Origin: a bacterium
Lineage (GTDB): Bacteria > Hinthialibacterota > Hinthialibacteria > H5-UNCL2
Reading direction: 5' to 3'
Assembly (NCBI GenBank): GCA_015075175.1
Contig: JABTUV010000005.1
Location: 1-64,000 of the forward strand
DNA length: 64,000 nt
Below the pieces are notes generated by a model. The model was not told the DNA's origin, searched no databases, and was given only the letters and a program-made list of their open reading frames with translations. The position numbers were made by a program, and so were the translations under genes. Positions 53,580 to 64,000 of the stretch are shown here, in pieces; positions within the stretch are counted from its first letter, which is position 1; every line of letters begins with the position of its first letter.

Positions 53580-53825
53580 CTTGAGCAGGTTGCGGGCGGC
53601 GGGGGTAAGGCCGCTCATGACGAGGATGCGTTGGACCACGATTTTGTTGCGGACGGCGTTGCGCTCGACCAGGAGTTTTCCCAAAAGCCCGTCGCGTTCG
53701 GCCTTTAGGAGCAGCTCGGCGTCTTTCTGGAATTCGAGCAATGGCGCGAGACCAAGGGAGGCGGGTTCGAACTTGGTCTCACCGTCGGCGATGCGGGCCA
53801 GAAGTTCGAGCAGGCGCGGCGTCAT
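53577..53825 (-). CDS. 82-residue protein coupled to cytochrome gene, unknown function
   Basis: MTPRLLELLARIADGETKFEPASLGLAPLLEFQKDAELLLKAERDGLLGKLLVERNAVRNKIVVQRILVMSGLTPAARNLLK is predicted mostly helical, without signal peptide, TM segment or cysteines. Its ATG overlaps the stop of the 12-heme cytochrome gene by one base (TGATG), so it is translated together with it. No family recognised. A cytoplasmic role, perhaps regulatory or in cytochrome maturation, is possible. Confidence 0.6.
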   Translation of the reverse strand: MTPRLLELLARIADGETKFEPASLGLAPLLEFQKDAELLLKAERDGLLGKLLVERNAVRNKIVVQRILVMSGLTPAARNLLK

Positions 53826-55039
53826 CAGATGCGATGGCAGCTGGTGCAGGCGTCCTCGGGCAGGATGGCGTGACGCGCCGGGTTGAGGCGGCGGATCAGC
53901 TCGGGCCGGGGCTGCGGGGGCGGACCGCTGCCCGCGTTGGGGCCGTGGCAGGCCAGGCAGGAGGCGGTGGGGCGATGGTAGAGCGAGGGCGTGGGCGCGG
54001 GGGCGCTGGGATGCAGGCCGGCCGGATCGCCCGCGTGGCAGACAAAGCAGCCTGAGCGCTCGCCCGCGCCGGCGTGGCAGTTCCAGCAGTGCCGGTTGCC
54101 GGGCGAACTCCAGCCCGCCCGGTGCGAGAGCGGGGCGTTGTTGCTGTGGCAGTCCTGGCAACTGTCCGTCTGGTGGCAGGTCATGCACGAGTCGCGGTTG
54201 ACCGAGGCCTCGATGCCGTGGGACTTGAGCCGCCAGAAGTTGTTGTGGCTTTTGGGCATCTGGGTTTCGTGGCAGCTCTTGCAGGTGGCTTCTTTTTCGT
54301 GGCAGACGGAGCAGTTTTCCACCCCGTGCATCTGCGCCTCGCGGCCGTGGCGATTCTCCCAGTCGCCGGTGAAGTGCGAGGCCGGCTTTTTGTCGCGGCG
54401 GATGCCCTCGTGGCAGGTTTCGCAGTCGAGCTCGAGGGTGTGGGCGAAGGCCATGATGCGCCGCTTCTCGCCGAAGTCCAGCCTGGGGGTATGGAGCGTC
54501 GAGGTATCGATGACGCGGGCGTGGCAGGAGGCGCAGTCGACCTTCTCCGCCAGCAGGTCGGTATGCAGAAAGACGACCGTGGGGGTGCCCTCGGGGACGG
54601 CCGGCGGGACCATCTCGTCCTTCTTGAACACGTGGCAGTGGCCGCAACTGTCGTCGTCGGCGCTGGGGTCGCTCTCGATCTGATCGCTGTGGCAGGAACA
54701 GGTCTCGTGGGTGGGACGCGCCATCCGCCCGTCGGTGATGGTGTGGCAGGTGTCGCAGGTCAGTTCCAGTTCTTTGACGTGCTTGACGTGGTTAAAGAGG
54801 AGTTTGTGCTCTTCCTTCTTGCAGCCTAGGGAGAGCATGAGCATGGCCGCCAGGAGGATGGCCGCCAGGATGCGTGTGGACCCATTGGAGTCCAAGGGGG
54901 CGGCAGCCGAAGATTTCTCCCTTCGGTCGAAATGACAGCGGGGGTCGATATGACAGCGGGGGTCGAAATGACAGCTTCGGTCGAAATGATAGCTTCGGTC
55001 GAAATGAGAGGATGGGGCGGTGTGCAAGGTTGTTTTCAT
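53825..55039 (-). CDS. dodecaheme (12 CXXCH) cytochrome c lipoprotein
   Basis: A 404-residue multiheme cytochrome with 12 canonical CXXCH sites (CDTCH, CGHCH, CASCH, CETCH, CSVCH, CKSCH, CMTCH, CQDCH, CWNCH, CFVCH, CLACH, CTSCH) and one shortened CSCH. A lipobox (MLMLSLGC, Cys73) marks it as a lipoprotein. Its ATG 55039 overlaps the porin stop (TGATG), so they form one operon. Oddly, the signal sequence starts only at about residue 55. Residues about 11-45 (HFDRSYHFDRSCHFDP) are a translated copy of the TGTCATTTCGACC repeat, inserted in frame. A later start at 54844 would restore a normal lipoprotein signal. Confidence 0.9.
   Translation of the reverse strand: MKTTLHTAPSSHFDRSYHFDRSCHFDPRCHIDPRCHFDRREKSSAAAPLDSNGSTRILAAILLAAMLMLSLGCKKEEHKLLFNHVKHVKELELTCDTCHTITDGRMARPTHETCSCHSDQIESDPSADDDSCGHCHVFKKDEMVPPAVPEGTPTVVFLHTDLLAEKVDCASCHARVIDTSTLHTPRLDFGEKRRIMAFAHTLELDCETCHEGIRRDKKPASHFTGDWENRHGREAQMHGVENCSVCHEKEATCKSCHETQMPKSHNNFWRLKSHGIEASVNRDSCMTCHQTDSCQDCHSNNAPLSHRAGWSSPGNRHCWNCHAGAGERSGCFVCHAGDPAGLHPSAPAPTPSLYHRPTASCLACHGPNAGSGPPPQPRPELIRRLNPARHAILPEDACTSCHRI
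54911..55015. repeat. TGTCATTTCGACCG repeat, copy 6 (right half plus expansion)
   Basis: GAAGATTTCTCCCTTCGGTC then GAAATGACAG is followed by four more right ends (GGGGGTCGATATGACAGC, GGGGGTCGAAATGACAGC, TTCGGTCGAAATGATAGC, TTCGGTCGAAATGAGAGG) of 18 bases each. It lies in the 5' coding part of the cytochrome gene and is read in frame, because 18 is a multiple of three. Confidence 0.9.
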
Positions 55040-56377
55040 CAGAAGTACACCGAGAGCATGGTGCGCAGGGAGAAGAAGGTGTCCTCGCCGCCGTCGTCGG
55101 TCTGGACGTTGTCCTCGAGTTCGGCGCGGGCGGAGAGGGCGAACTCCGGGCGCGGGCGCCAGCGTGCGCGCAGGTAGTAGCTGCGCGCGTCGGGCGCCCG
55201 ATGATACTCATCCTTGAACGTGATGTCGTCGTAATACTCGTAGACGTAATCGACGACGCCGGCGCCGGCGGACAGTTCCCACTGCTTGTTGGGCCGCCAG
55301 GTGGCGTCGCCGTAGAGGCCGGAGAGGCGGTTGTCGCCCTCCGCGTCCCAGCGCTGGGCGGAGAGCGAGAGGAACCACTGCTCCGTGGGCATGAAGGCGA
55401 GGGTGATGTCCTCGTTGAGGTAATCCTGGTTGGTCGCGTTCTCGTCCCCGCCGTCCACGACGCGGCCGGTGATGCCGCCCGAGAGCGTCCAGCGCTCGCC
55501 CAGGAACTTGAGGATTCGAGCTTGACCGTAGTGGTAAGGTTGCAGGTCGCCGAGGGCGGTATAAAGCGGATTGAAGGGGAGAGACTCATCTTCCAGCGTA
55601 TGGAAGAGGCGGCTGTAGCGGCCGTCAAGTTGCAGTCTGGCCTTGTCGCAATAATAAGAGGCGTCCAGGTCGAGGCGGTCGAAGTGGTCGTCGAGGACGG
55701 TCGCGCGGGCGTGGACGCGGACGGCTCCCAGGGAGTCCCAGAGGTCGAGGGCGAAGCGGTCGCCGGCGCGCGTTTCGTCCTGGTCGTAGCGATAATAGAG
55801 GAGGCGGGCACGGCCGGTAGGACGGTAGCGCCAACCGACGGCGGCGCCGCCCGCCCAGTCGTTGTGCGTGCCGGAATAATAAGTGACGGGACGGCCCAGG
55901 AAGGCCAGCACGTCCCAGTTGCGACCCAATCCCAGGCGCGCTGAGACTCCATCCAAGTGCAACCAGTCCGCCTCGTCCACGTACTGCCGTCCCGCGCGGA
56001 TTTTCAAGTCTTCGGCCAGATTCTCAATATCAAGATAAAAGCCGATACAGGCGGTCGGGAAAGGCTTTGTCGCGCGCGTCGTACAGGTCGCGGAAAATAT
56101 CATCGTCGTAGCCGGATCCCAGGCGGTCGCCGTCGATGTCCTTGTGCCATCGCAGGGAGGAGTAAGCGCTGACATAGCCGGGGATGAGCTCGCGCACGCG
56201 CAGGTTGAGATGCTCGTAGATGTCCTGGTCGGTCTCGCCGCTACGGTGGCGCAGGCGATACTCGGAGATGAGACTGCCGTCGAGATTGTCGGGCAGGAAG
56301 TCCCATTCCGCCACGTCGGTCCATGCACCCGCGGTCAGAAGGGCGAGGAAAGCGGAGAAGAGTAGCGACCTGGTCAT
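55039..56377 (-). CDS. outer-membrane beta-barrel protein (porin of porin-cytochrome pair), one frame break
   Basis: A signal peptide (MTRSLLFSAFLALLTAGAWTD) begins at ATG 56377. The protein is about 445 residues of alternating amphipathic strands rich in Tyr/Trp/Arg (RLRHRSGETDQDIYEHLNLRVRELIPG, RLLYYRYDQDETRAG, YLRARWRPRPEFALSARAELEDNV), ending LRTMLSVYF with the C-terminal Phe expected of outer-membrane barrels. At about 56040 the frame breaks (RLYRL then YLDIENLAEDLKIRAGRQYVDEA in another frame); one base is missing or extra. No CXXCH site. Coupled to the 12-heme lipoprotein, it fits the barrel that sheathes a cytochrome wire (MtrB/PioB-like role; no sequence family assigned). Confidence 0.82.
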
Positions 56378-56752
56378 ACGTAATCGTGAAGGGAACGAAT
56401 GGGCGTGCTCGGCGACGCCGGGCATAACTTAGCAAAAGCTTGGTGGAGAGGGAAGCGAAATTCCACACGGCAGTCACGAAACCCTTGGGATTCCTATACA
56501 GAATCAATCTTGTGCCCTTTCGCGGGCACGAATTTCTTCTTCACCTTGGCGGAGTTGTAGCGTATCTTCAGCGTGGTCGTGGCGGTTCCACCGCGAGGGT
56601 CGGAGCGACCGATAAAGCGTCGAACAACGCGATGGAGCGAGGCGGACGGGCCGGCCATCGCCGAAGAAATCAACGATCCCCCGCACAGAGATGGGACGGC
56701 GCCGGGCAGCGGCGCAGTCCGGGGCGCGCGTGGGGCGAGGAGAGGTGTTTTC
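56378..56752. other. 375-base gap between divergent cytochrome operons
   Basis: No gene and no member of the repeat families recognised. It must hold the promoters of the leftward porin operon and the rightward cytochrome. An AT-richer stretch (TTCCTATACAGAATCAATCT at about 56492) is the only promoter-like spot, and I cannot assign boxes with confidence. Confidence 0.4.
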
Positions 56753-58963
56753 ATGCCGACACAGCAGCGCAGGCCGCGAGGGGCGCCGATCCTGGTCCTC
56801 GGGATGCTCGGACTCATGGTGGTTGCGATGCATCCCTTGTATGCGGCGTCGGACCGGAACGGGGACGGGCGCGTGGACGCGGAGGATCTTTTACTGTTGC
56901 AGGAGGACTGGCATTCCAAGGCGGACGTGAATGGGTCGAGCGCGCCGGAGCGAGGGGAGCTATTTCGGATGGCGCTGGACTGGCATCGGCCCTTGGGAGC
57001 GGAGACGGACACGCCGACGCCTACCGCGACGCCGACGAGTACGCCGGTCCCCACGCTGGTCGCGGGGATCGAGCGGGTAGTGGTCTCGCCGCGGCTGCGC
57101 GATCAGTCGGCTGATGACGTATTCGATGAGAAGTATCACGGCGAGACGGTAGTGGCCATCGGGCAGAAGGTATACCTGCGCGGCGTGGCGGTCGCCAACG
57201 GCCCGATCGGGCAGTACACGTGGACGGTAGCGTCGGCGCCGGCGGGTTCGACGGCGACGATTGCGGGCGCGGGGGAGCTGGTCACGTTCCGGCCCGACCG
57301 GGAGGGGGACTATCAGATTCGGCTGGCGGCGCGGGACGGGGGTGGCGCGGCGGCGGCGCCGGTGCAAGCGCGCGTGTTCGCCGCGCGTTACGTGGGGACG
57401 GGTTCACTGGGCGATAACACGCCCAACGTCGGGCTGGGGCAGTGCGCCTTTTGCCATCCCGGCAACCACACCGACTGGCTGAAGACGGAGCACGCGCAGA
57501 TCATGCCGGAGTATCTGGACGGCAAGCGCGGGCCTGAGTATCCGCAGCGACTGCTGGAATATCACACCGTGGGCTACCATGAGCATCCGGACGCCGGGCC
57601 GAGCCAGGTTTCCTGCAGACCGCCGCGGCCAATGATTTCGATACGGCGAGCATTCCGGCCTGGTCGCCGAGGCGGCAAGGGCCTGCCGATCCTGAGATTC
57701 CCGACGTCCCAACTTCTGACAACATCCTGGCGCCGGTGCAAAACAAGATGAGCGTGCAGTGCGAGAGCTGCCACGGTCCAGCCAACCGGCATTTTGAAAC
57801 AAGCAGAACATCAATCCGGCCAGTTACGATCAGCGGCGGTGCGCGGTGTGCCATGATACGGACGAGGGCGGGCCGCTGTCGACTCTGGGACAGTGGGACA
57901 TGTCGCGGCATCCGTTCACGAGCAGCGACGCGGAGGAGCGTGCAGAACAGCGCCACGTGCCGCGCCTGCCATACGGCGGAGGGCTTCGTGGAGGTGCAGG
58001 TGGAGGGGCGGGCGAGCCAGACGCATCCGGAGTATCACGCCATCACGTGCGCGGCCTGCCATGATCCGCACGGCAGCACGGGCCTGCCAACCAGTTGCGG
58101 CGCATGGGGCGACGCGCATCCTGATGGGCAACGTGCTGCCTTACGCGGGCAAGGGCGGACTGTGCATGGGCTGCCACCATTCGCGCGTCGCCGATGTCAC
58201 GAGTACCGTCACCACCAGCCGCGGGGGCGCATTACGAACGCAGACGGACATGATCCTGGGCGTATCGGGTTTCACCTACGGGCAGATATTCGGGGGGACC
58301 TCGGTGCACGCCTACGTGGTGAAGGACACCTGCGTGGCCTGCCACATGAAGAAGAGCTACGAGCGGACGCTGGGGGGGCACAGTTTCGCGCTGCGGGACG
58401 AGATGGGCACGCCCGAGGACCTCTCCGACGACCGCACGCACGTCGAAGGGCTGTGCACGAACTGCCATACCGGGCTGGGCACCTTGGACCGGGTGGCGGG
58501 GACGGCGGACTGGGACGGGGACGGGCGGGCGGAGGGCACGCAGAGCGAGGTGCGCGGGCTGTTGGCGATACTGCGTGCCGCCATCCTGGCGCGCGTGTCC
58601 GGGTTGACGGTCAACGAGCACGGCCTCATCGGGATTCCGTCCAGCGTCTTTTCGACCATGACAGAGGCGGAAAAGGCGGCCGTGTACAACCATAATTTCG
58701 TGTTGAACGACGGCAGTTTCGGGGTGCACAACACGGGCTACGCGGTGATGCTCTTGCAGGAGGGCTACCGGCAGTTGACGGGGCAGGCGGTTCCGGGGGC
58801 GGTGATTGTGCCGTTGGGGCCGACGATTCCGTGGAAGACGCGGCAGATGCTGGAGCAGTTGGCGAGTACTCCCGGAGCGGTGTATCGCCAGGCGGACGGT
58901 TCGCCGGCGATGTCGGCGGGGGCGCGGAAGGCGCTGCGCGCGGTGTACGGGTCGCTGGAGTAG
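56753..58963 (+). CDS. octaheme secreted cytochrome with dockerin-like and PKD-like parts, frameshifted
   Basis: ATG 56753 follows GGAGAGG. A signal peptide (ILVLGMLGLMVVAMHPLYA) precedes a dockerin-type Ca motif DRNGDGRVDAEDLLLLQEDW, a Thr-Pro linker (TDTPTPTATPTSTPVPT) and a PKD/Ig-like domain. Heme sites follow: CAFCH, CESCH, CAVCH, CRACH, CAACH, CMGCH, CVACH, CTNCH. Between 57600 and 58130 these sites are spread over three frames, so at least three indels are present; after 58130 the frame is clean to 58963. The C-terminal ~140 residues (TGLGTLDRVAGTADWDGDGRAEG...) end without an anchor. It may be an extracellular or surface electron acceptor/donor. Confidence 0.83.
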
Positions 58964-59649: not shown

Positions 59650-62591
59650 TTGCGGATATGGTGGACTTGCCTGGCGCTGGGGATTCTCCTTGGGGCGTCG
59701 TCGTGGGCGACGGGGGAGGAGCTTACGAGCGCGCAATGCCTGGAGTGCCACGCGGTGGAGGCGGTGACGCCGCCGCGGATTCCCTCTCCGCCGGGCGAGG
59801 ATCTGTTTCTATTGCCGGAATCGGTTCACGGCGGCTTGGAGTGCAGCGACTGCCACGGCGGCGTGACGGAGGAGCATCCGCTGGAGAAGGCGGCGTTGCC
59901 GCGGGTGGATTGCGGGCAGTGCCACGCGGACGAGGCGGAGCTTCTGGCCCGCAGTGTGCACCATCCGCCGGTAGGCGCGGCGACGGAGGGCTATCCGCAG
60001 TGCTACTCGTGCCACGGGGCGCACGGGGTCTTTAAACAGGACGACGCGCGCTCGTATCTTTTCACTGCCGCGTGGGATCGCGCGTGCAGCCAGTGTCACG
60101 AGAAGGAGGAGGCCGTCTACCGCGAGAGCCTGCACGGTACGGCAATGGTGAAAGGCGATCCCCTGGCGCCGCACTGCTGGGACTGCCACGGCAGCCACGG
60201 CATCCTGCCGCCGGAGAATCCCGGCTCCCGCAGCAATCCCATCAACGTTCCCGAGATGTGCGGGGCCTGCCACGCGGAAAACGCGCCGGTGGCGGCAGCC
60301 CGCAACATCGCCCAGCACGATATTCTCCAGCACTACGAGGAGAGCATTCACGGCGAGGGGCTGAAGCGGAAGGGGCTGACGGTCACCGCGGTGTGCAGCA
60401 GTTGCCACACCGCGCATCATGTTCTGCCGCACACCGACGCGCGGTCCACCATCCATCGCGACAACGTCGTGAAAACCTGCATGCAGTGCCATACGCTGAT
60501 CGAGGAAGTGCATCGCAAGGTAGTGGAGGGGCGGCTGTGGGAGGAGGAGCCGAACAAGGTGCCGGTGTGCATCGACTGCCACCAGCCGCACGCGGCGCGC
60601 AAGGTTTATTACGACGAGGGGGTGAGCGACAAGGACTGCATGGCCTGCCACGGCCATGCGGTGACGGGTGCGACGCGCGTATTGGCGGCGGTGGACACGA
60701 TCGAGTTGGCCAGTTCGACGCATGCACGGACGCGCTGCGCGCAGTGCCATACGGGGGCGCAGCCGTCCTTGCATCGACCCTGCGAGACGATAGCGGCGAA
60801 AGTGGACTGTTCGATCTGCCACGCGGCGATGGTCAACGATTATCGGCGGGGGGTGCACGGGCAGTTGGCGGCGCGGGGCGACCCGGATGCGCCGGAGTGC
60901 CTGGATTGCCATCGCGGGCACGGCACGCAGTCCAAGCGGGATCCGGCGTCGCCGACCTTCCCGCGCAACGTGCCCACGCTGTGCGGGGCGTGCCATCGCG
61001 AGGGGGAGCGGGCGGCCAGGCGGCTGCCGCCCGAGCGCCAGCACGAGATCGTGGCGCATTATTCGATGAGCATCCACGGCAAGGGGCTGCTTCAGAGCGG
61101 GCTGGTCGTCACGGCGATGTGCTCGGACTGCCACACCGCGCATCGCGAGTTGCCGAGGACGGATCCCGAGTCGACCGTGCATCCGGACAACGTGCCGGCC
61201 ACTTGCGGGCGCTGCCACCACGGCATCCAGGAGGTTTTCGAGACCAGCATCCACTCGGCGTCGGTGTCGCAGACGGAGCGGAAGTTGCCGGTGTGCAGCG
61301 ACTGCCACAGCGCGCACAGCATCGTGCGCACGGCGGAGGAGCAGTTTGTGGAGAGCGTGATCGGGGCGTGCGGCGACTGCCACCGGGAGGAGGCGGAGAC
61401 GTACCGCGATACGTATCACGGCAAGACGGCGTACGGGCCGGGCAAGGCGGCCAAGTGCTACGACTGCCACGGGGCGCACGACATTTTGCCGCCCAGCGAT
61501 CCGCACTCGCGGCTGTCGCGGCAGAACATCGTGGCGACCTGCGCGCAGTGCCATCGGGGGGCGCATCTGCGTTTCGCCGCCGGTTATCTGACGCACGCCA
61601 CGCATCACGATCCGAAAAAATATCCGGCGTTGTTTTTCACCTTCTGGGCCATGACGGCGCTCTTGGTGGGGACTTTCGCCTTTTTCGGCTTGCACACGCT
61701 GGCCTGGCTGCCGGTCTCTTTTCGTGAGTTGCGGCATCGCAAGCGGCTGGTCGAGACGACCGGCGACCAGCGCATGTTCCGGCGCTTTGATCCCCGCCGC
61801 GGCAACTGCATTTCTTCCTGATCCTGTCCTTTTTCGGGCTGGCGCTTTCGGGCATGGCGCTGAAGTTCTCCTACATGCCCTGGGCGCAGAAGCTGGCGGG
61901 CATCCTGGGAGGCTTCGAGTCGGCGGGAAGCCTGCATCGGTTCTGCGCGGTGGTGATGGTGGTGGTGTTCGTGATCCACCTGGGGATGATCGTCTCGCGC
62001 AAGAGGCAGGGAGGGCGGAGCTGGCGGGAGGTTTTGTCGGGGACGGGCAGTCTCGTGCCCAACATGAATGACGCGCGCGAGTTGTGGGCGACGCTGCTGT
62101 GGTTTTTGCGGAGGGGACCGCGGCCCAATTACGGGCAGTGGACGTACTGGGAGAAGTTCGACTACTTCGCGGTTTTCTGGGGGGTGGCCATCATCGGCAG
62201 CACCGGGTTGATGCTGTGGTTTCCGGAGCATTTCACGCGCATTTTTCCGGGATGGTTGATCAACGTGGCGACCATCATCCACAGCGACGAGGCGCTGTTG
62301 GCGGTGGGGTTCATCTTCACCATTCACTTTTTCAACACGCATTTCCGGCCGGACAAGTTTCCCATGGACATGGCGATGTTCACGGGGCGGGTGGCGGTGG
62401 AGGAGTTGAAGGAGGATCGGCCGCGGTATTACGAGGAGTTGGCAGCGAGCGGGGAGCTGGAGAAGAACATCGTGCCGCCGGCGCCGCGGGAGATGCACTT
62501 CTGGGGGGCGGTGTTCGGGGCGATCGCGCTGGTGGTGGGGTTTTCGCTGGTGGGGTTGATCATTTACTCGATGGTGTTCGGGTATCGGTAG
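59650..62591 (+). CDS. 21-heme cytochrome c fused to membrane cytochrome b module, one frame break
   Basis: An exported protein of about 980 residues. It starts at TTG 59650 (GGAGA 9 bases upstream) with signal peptide LRIWWTCLALGILLGASSWA. Twenty-one canonical CXXCH sites run from CLECH (59737) to CAQCH (61540), many with distal His in GxHG/TAH patterns of cytochrome c3/c7-like repeats. A TM segment (FFTFWAMTALLVGTFAFFGLHTLAWL) follows. At about 61800 one base is off, and HFFLILSFFGLALSGMALKFSYMPWA continues in another frame to 62591. The last ~260 residues form a 4-5 TM diheme cytochrome b module with HRFCAV, VIHLGMI, IIHSDEALL and FTIHFFNTHFRPDKFPMD. It would oxidise quinol and pass electrons to its own heme chain, like CbcL but with far more hemes. 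Confidence 0.9.
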
Positions 62592-62663: not shown

Positions 62664-64000
62664 ATGAGTAGACTGCGAGTTGGTTGCGTGAGTGGTCTTA
62701 TTTTTCTGGCGGCGCTGATTATGGGGCTGGCGGGGGAGGAGATTTCGACCGACGACTGCACGACCTGCCATGCGCCGGAAGGCGCCACGGAGCCGTTCCA
62801 GCTGCCGCTGTCGGGCAATGACCTGGTGTTTTCAGCGAGTCGGTTCACAACATCTTCAGTTGCACCGACTGCCACGCGGGGGTCACGGACGAGCACATGG
62901 AGCAGCCGCCGCCGCGCGTGGATTGCACGAGCTGCCACACGGACGAGGGGGCGGCGATGGAAGGGAGCGTGCACCATCCCCCGAGCGTGGCGGACGCGAC
63001 CTACTATCCGGTCTGCTGGACCTGCCACGGCAAGCACTCGATCTTTTCCTCCGGCGATGCCCGTTCGCACACCTATCCGCCGTCGGTGGACCGGGTGTGC
63101 AGCCAGTGCCACGACTCGGACGCTTTCCGGGCGAAGTTTCCGGCGGTCAACAAGAACATCGTGGCCTCCTATCGGCACTCGACGCACAGCCGGGCGTTGC
63201 ACGAGACGGGCAACCTGGACGCCGCCGCCTGCAACGACTGCCACGGCAGCCACGACATCCTGCCGGGCACGCACGAGAAGAGTTCGGTGAATCGTTTCAA
63301 TTTGGCGGGGACGTGCGGCCAGTGCCACGAGCAGGTTTCCCAGGAATATCTCACGAGCATCCACGGGGAGCTGTTGGCGGCGGGCAACCGGGACACGCCG
63401 GTGTGCACCTACTGCCACGGCGAGCATTACATTCTGAATCCGCGCGATCCGGAGTCGCCGTTGGAGCACACGCGGGTGTCGCGGGAGATCTGCTCGCCCT
63501 GCCACAACTCGGTGGTGATGTCGCGGAAGTACGGGTTGCGCACGGACCGGGTGGCGACCTACGAGGACAGTTATCACGGGCTGGCGACGCGCTTCGGGTC
63601 GACGTCGGCGGCCAACTGCGCGACCTGCCACGGGGTGCACAACATTCTGCCCTCCAGCGATCCGCGTTCCATGGTCCACAAGGCGAACCTACCGGCGACC
63701 TGCGGGCAATGCCATCCGCGCATCCGGCAGGACGCGGAGATCGGGCCGGTGCACACCGCGTCGCTGACGCAGCAGGCGGAGCTGGTGCGCAGGTTCTACA
63801 TGTGGGTGATCGTTTTGACGCTGGGCGGGATGGTGGCGCACAATCTCCTGATCCATTTTCGGCCATCCGCCGGAAGCTGTTGCGCCAGCGCGGGTTGCCC
63901 AAGGTGGGGAAGTTCAACGCCAACGAGATCGTCCAGCATTGGGTTTTGGCGGTGAGTTTCATCGTGCTGGTGATTACCGGGTTCGCCATCACCATGCCGG
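62664..64000 (+). CDS. 11-heme cytochrome c with cytochrome b module, paralogue of preceding gene, partial
   Basis: It starts at ATG 62664 with signal peptide MSRLRVGCVSGLIFLAALIMGLAG. CTTCH is the first site. The frame breaks at about 62845 (VFSASRF, then VHNIFSCTDCHAGVTDEH in another frame). Ten more sites follow: CTDCH, CTSCH, CWTCH, CSQCH, CNDCH, CGQCH, CTYCH, CSPCH, CATCH, CGQCH. A TM segment (WVIVLTLGGMVAHNLLIHF) precedes a second frame break near 63862. RRKLLRQRGLPKVGKFNANEIVQHWVLAVSFIVLVITGFAITMP then starts a cytochrome b domain, which is cut by the window end. Same architecture as the 21-heme protein with fewer repeats, so a tandem duplicate. Confidence 0.88.

Follow-up and report, generated by a model that had tools for sequence, protein, structure and literature searches.

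Evidence for a single-chain CbcL/MtrH/MtoC-type protein that joins a 21-heme c domain to a diheme cytochrome b module

Does the locus at 59650-62591 of the window (the whole 64,000-nucleotide stretch of DNA that was analysed) encode one protein, in which a long chain of c-type hemes is joined to a cytochrome b module, or two separate proteins? The reading frame is broken at about 61800, and an earlier note on this DNA had nevertheless assumed continuity across the break. The results presented here make it very probable that the locus encodes one protein of about 980 residues, in which a 21-heme c domain, a transmembrane (TM) helix and a diheme b module of the CbcL/MtrH/MtoC type follow each other, the break being due to base loss.

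The c part is encoded on the forward strand by an open reading frame (59650-61821) that likely starts with TTG at 59650 and runs without an internal stop. It comprises a signal peptide, 21 CXXCH motifs, the first TM helix and a spurious stop a few codons past the break. All motifs are located between 59737 and 61554 (forward strand) in the same frame, confirming the count of 21 sites in about 610 residues given in the earlier note. When the residues of the c part were shuffled 2000 times, a mean of 0.22 and a maximum of 4 CXXCH motifs were obtained, far below the observed number. The multiheme domain is an internal duplication, as profiles of its two halves aligned over 195 columns with 41% identity (E 1e-63); in profile comparisons, both halves also matched the c domain of a neighbouring 11-heme fusion. 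Beside the 19 motif histidines, 21 non-motif histidines are conserved in the c part in an alignment of the 19-heme proteins, which is consistent with a sufficient number of ligands for bis-His ligation of all c hemes. These hemes would presumably be attached at the CXXCH sites. A predicted model of the window's c part (mean pLDDT 72) gave middling matches to HAO-like proteins and MtrA.

The c part is linked to the b module by a TM helix at 61614-61727 (forward strand), a hydrophobic stretch that corresponds to helix 603-642 in the predicted structure of L045, a close unbroken relative that stands in for the window protein (mean pLDDT 82, pTM 0.58). Six long helices were obtained in this model (603-642, 659-683, 700-732, 777-801, 813-842 and 891-921), of which one is predicted to cross the membrane after the c part and five within the b module. 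The layout described in the earlier note, a TM helix followed by a b module with paired histidines, is retained in the model, while its helix number of four to five in the b module has to be set at five, with six in total. The b module itself is encoded at 61800-62591 (forward strand, stop codon at 62589-62591) and is an FdnI/HydC-like b-type cytochrome module with conserved histidines. It matches PF01292 and TIGR01583, the latter below the curated cut-off, and the best match of the L045 b module among solved structures was FdnI (Z 14.9, 2.8 Å, 202 residues). In the b module, five TM histidines are invariant across 58 relatives; in the window, four of them lie within the residues of alignment A1, and the first, located just before A1, is also present. 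When solved structures were searched by sequence, the b-module profile matched none of them and the c part gave weak matches only. HAO-like proteins and MtrA were also the structural matches, at middling Z values, for parts of the L045 c domain; such structural similarity shows a common heme arrangement and not function.

Downstream of the locus, a second c/b fusion with 11 hemes is encoded on the forward strand from 62664 to the window end at 64000 and beyond. It comprises 626 aa on contig C20 of the same genome and is broken by lost bases in C45, the window's contig. A six-heme NapC/NirT-type ImcH-like protein is likewise encoded downstream. On the reverse strand lie the genes for a 12-heme cytochrome (53825-55039), a candidate for the periplasmic part of a porin-cytochrome conduit, and for its candidate partner, an outer-membrane beta-barrel (55039-56425) whose frame may be broken close to the start; L034 and L035 encode similar barrels in the vicinity of the fusion. 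At 56573-58963, a PKD domain and a weakly MtrC/MtrF-like multiheme stretch were noticed with frame breaks between them, possibly parts of one extracellular cytochrome. Contigs of named genomes were scanned with a b-module profile, which yielded at least 575 related loci, and the best 80 of these were analysed. Among these 80, a second b-type protein like that of the 11-heme fusion is encoded nearby in at least 36 and a strong ImcH-like match in at least about 28, both counts being lower bounds as many contigs are short.

The architecture, its conservation and the fold of the b module are supported directly. The best reading of the encoded protein is a quinol/quinone-cytochrome oxidoreductase for extracellular electron transfer, for which the following direction, partners and electron path are proposed. 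The b module would oxidise menaquinol in the inner membrane, and its two b hemes would hand the electrons to the periplasmic side. From there, the chain of bis-His c hemes, in a domain that arose by internal duplication, would carry them outward, either to periplasmic carriers or straight to a porin-cytochrome conduit, for which the pair encoded at 53.8-56.4 kb is the candidate. If this reading is right, the region is an extracellular electron transfer island in which an ImcH-like protein and a porin-cytochrome pair accompany two c/b quinol oxidoreductases. The 21-heme protein might instead reduce quinone with electrons taken up from outside, similar to MtoC, given that MtoC homologs are present in Fe(II) oxidisers and that no feature of the family tells the direction (PMC6295460). 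However, members of the family that includes the neighbouring ImcH-like gene have so far been linked to quinol oxidation only (PMC6295460), and electron uptake is regarded as rather unlikely.

The reading of a quinol-oxidising single chain depends on the frame break, which lies at 61794-61803 (forward strand). In comparisons with four unbroken relatives, the match ends at 61788-61794 in the first frame and resumes at 61800-61803 in the second frame. Between the two matches the relatives contain 2, 2, 3 and 5 residues, which need 6, 6, 9 and 15 bases, and the window has 5, 5, 8 and 14 bases at the junction, one base short in all four comparisons. The assumed continuity across the break is thereby supported. 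Contig C20 carries the same region again, starting at 61801, and overlaps with C45 at 61801-66061 (compared with L005), while the break itself is covered by C45 alone. Within these 4.3 kb, C45 is without bases at about nine places when compared with C20. The second c/b fusion is interrupted by the loss of one base each at 62829 and 63856, and the ImcH-like gene by losses after 65430; both genes are open in C20, the fusion over 630 residues. Because the junction is one base short relative to four relatives and C45 loses bases repeatedly relative to C20, we infer that the frame break is almost certainly due to a base lost in sequencing or assembly. For the latter reason, frame breaks elsewhere in the window should also be read with caution. 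A programmed frameshift was considered and dropped, as no slippery heptamer was found by eye and the relatives need none.

Alternatively, c part and b module could be encoded by two genes in this organism, as they are in Ignavibacteriota, and their products could form a two-subunit complex with the same function. Such an arrangement was found in 11 of the best 80 loci (L075, L077, L082, L084, L092, L101, L109, L114, L119, L120 and L122), mostly from Ignavibacteriota and Bacteroidota, where a 19-heme protein is encoded beside a separate b gene of 282-374 aa and the split lies at nearly the same position as the window's junction. However, the first usual start codon in the b frame of the window, ATG at 61854, comes only after the invariant first TM histidine, and a separate b gene starting there would therefore be without this residue. 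In addition, similarity to the fused relatives is still seen immediately before the break, C45 loses bases elsewhere, and the nearest relatives, Hydrogenedentota sequences with which the window protein groups, are all fused, which argues against two genes and makes them very unlikely. From this grouping, the host is probably a member of the Hydrogenedentota. The frame breaks in this and the neighbouring cytochrome genes on C45 would fit a decaying pseudogene, but this is extremely unlikely, since those in the two downstream genes are missing from C20, and all 21 heme sites (21/21) and the b-module histidines are intact.

The single chain, which is the preferred reading, was found unbroken in other genomes. 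When 61 genomes were searched, the window's own and 60 others, five of the 60 proved to encode an unbroken fusion (931-984 residues, 19 CXXCH motifs). Among the best 80 of the at least 575 loci, 59 encode complete unbroken fusions (51 with 19 motifs, four with 21 and four with 23); besides the 11 split loci, one has a shorter frame and nine are cut by contig ends. The best 80 loci span Acidobacteriota, Zixiibacteriota, Gemmatimonadota, Planctomycetota, Bacteroidota, Ignavibacteriota and others. The c and b parts are thus not always encoded by two genes, and one polypeptide for both, although its frame is broken in the window, is the state in these 59 loci and in the nearest relatives. The single-chain fusion put forward in the earlier note is thereby supported. 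Its further suggestion, that the protein serves extracellular electron transfer as a quinol oxidase, is likely. In L101 (12447-15455), a Rieske protein, a cytochrome b and an 11-heme cytochrome are encoded after the split c/b cluster, and the same gene order is suggested for L120 by lengths and first residues.

In an alignment of 60 proteins, 19 motif columns were common to all (60/60), including the window protein. Its two additional heme sites (59911 and 60001; region 59911-60084, forward strand) are missing in the 19-heme relatives and lie after the second and before the third of the shared motifs. The same columns are occupied in eight other proteins, four of which add another heme pair at the same site, so that the insertion site is shared by the other 21- and 23-heme members. 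The length of the predicted c domain varies in two-heme steps at one N-terminal site. A single clade of 21- and 23-heme members, a group named post hoc, was rejected (p-AU 7e-59, four changes on the tree). The 19-heme core with recurrent two-heme insertions would represent a natural length series in which heme-chain length can be set against periplasm width or carrier. We tentatively suggest, as an unlikely variant, that the chain of 21 hemes reaches across the periplasm and contacts an outer-membrane porin-cytochrome conduit directly, without soluble carriers, the two-heme steps tuning its reach. If true, quinone pool and outer membrane would be connected by one polypeptide.

A survey from 2018 described homologs of CbcL, MtoC and MtrH in 15 phyla, with 28.6-100% identity, 416-1034 residues, 3-23 CX2CH motifs and mostly six TM helices, and reported three conserved TM histidines for the b hemes (PMC6295460). 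In CbcL of Geobacter sulfurreducens itself, the diheme b domain has six helices and there are nine c hemes with bis-His ligation (PMC9129911), and in view of both papers the earlier contrast with CbcL as a few-heme protein is not supported. In the window protein, an N-terminal part with 21 CX2CH motifs, a C-terminal HydC/FdnI-like b region and conserved b-module histidines were found, and the six TM helices are present in the model of L045. Judged from its sequence, the window protein is within the range of the survey on every tested feature, its single-chain nature resting on the repaired break. Because this range (3-23 motifs, up to 1034 residues) covers the tested features, it is a long member of the already described CbcL/MtrH/MtoC family, to which it was likened by published descriptions.

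Like CbcL, MtrH and MtoC, the window protein would combine an N-terminal multiheme c domain and a C-terminal six-helix HydC/FdnI-like diheme b module in a single chain, within a cytochrome-rich neighbourhood. Compared by description with CbcL and its nine c hemes, it differs by its 21 sites and its internally duplicated c domain. In CbcBA of Geobacter sulfurreducens, for which a role in quinol oxidation is proposed, c and b parts are separate polypeptides. CbcBA and the split genes of Ignavibacteriota thus share the same kind of c and b parts with the window protein, but use two polypeptides instead of one. FdnI, the gamma subunit of formate dehydrogenase-N (1kqf_C), shares the b-module fold and the conserved TM histidines; it serves formate dehydrogenase, whereas the b module of the window is fused to a multiheme c domain. 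The NapC/NirT-type ImcH, a relative of which is encoded just downstream, acts, as is proposed for the window protein, at the inner membrane on the quinol side of extracellular electron transfer, but has another membrane domain without the FdnI-like b module.
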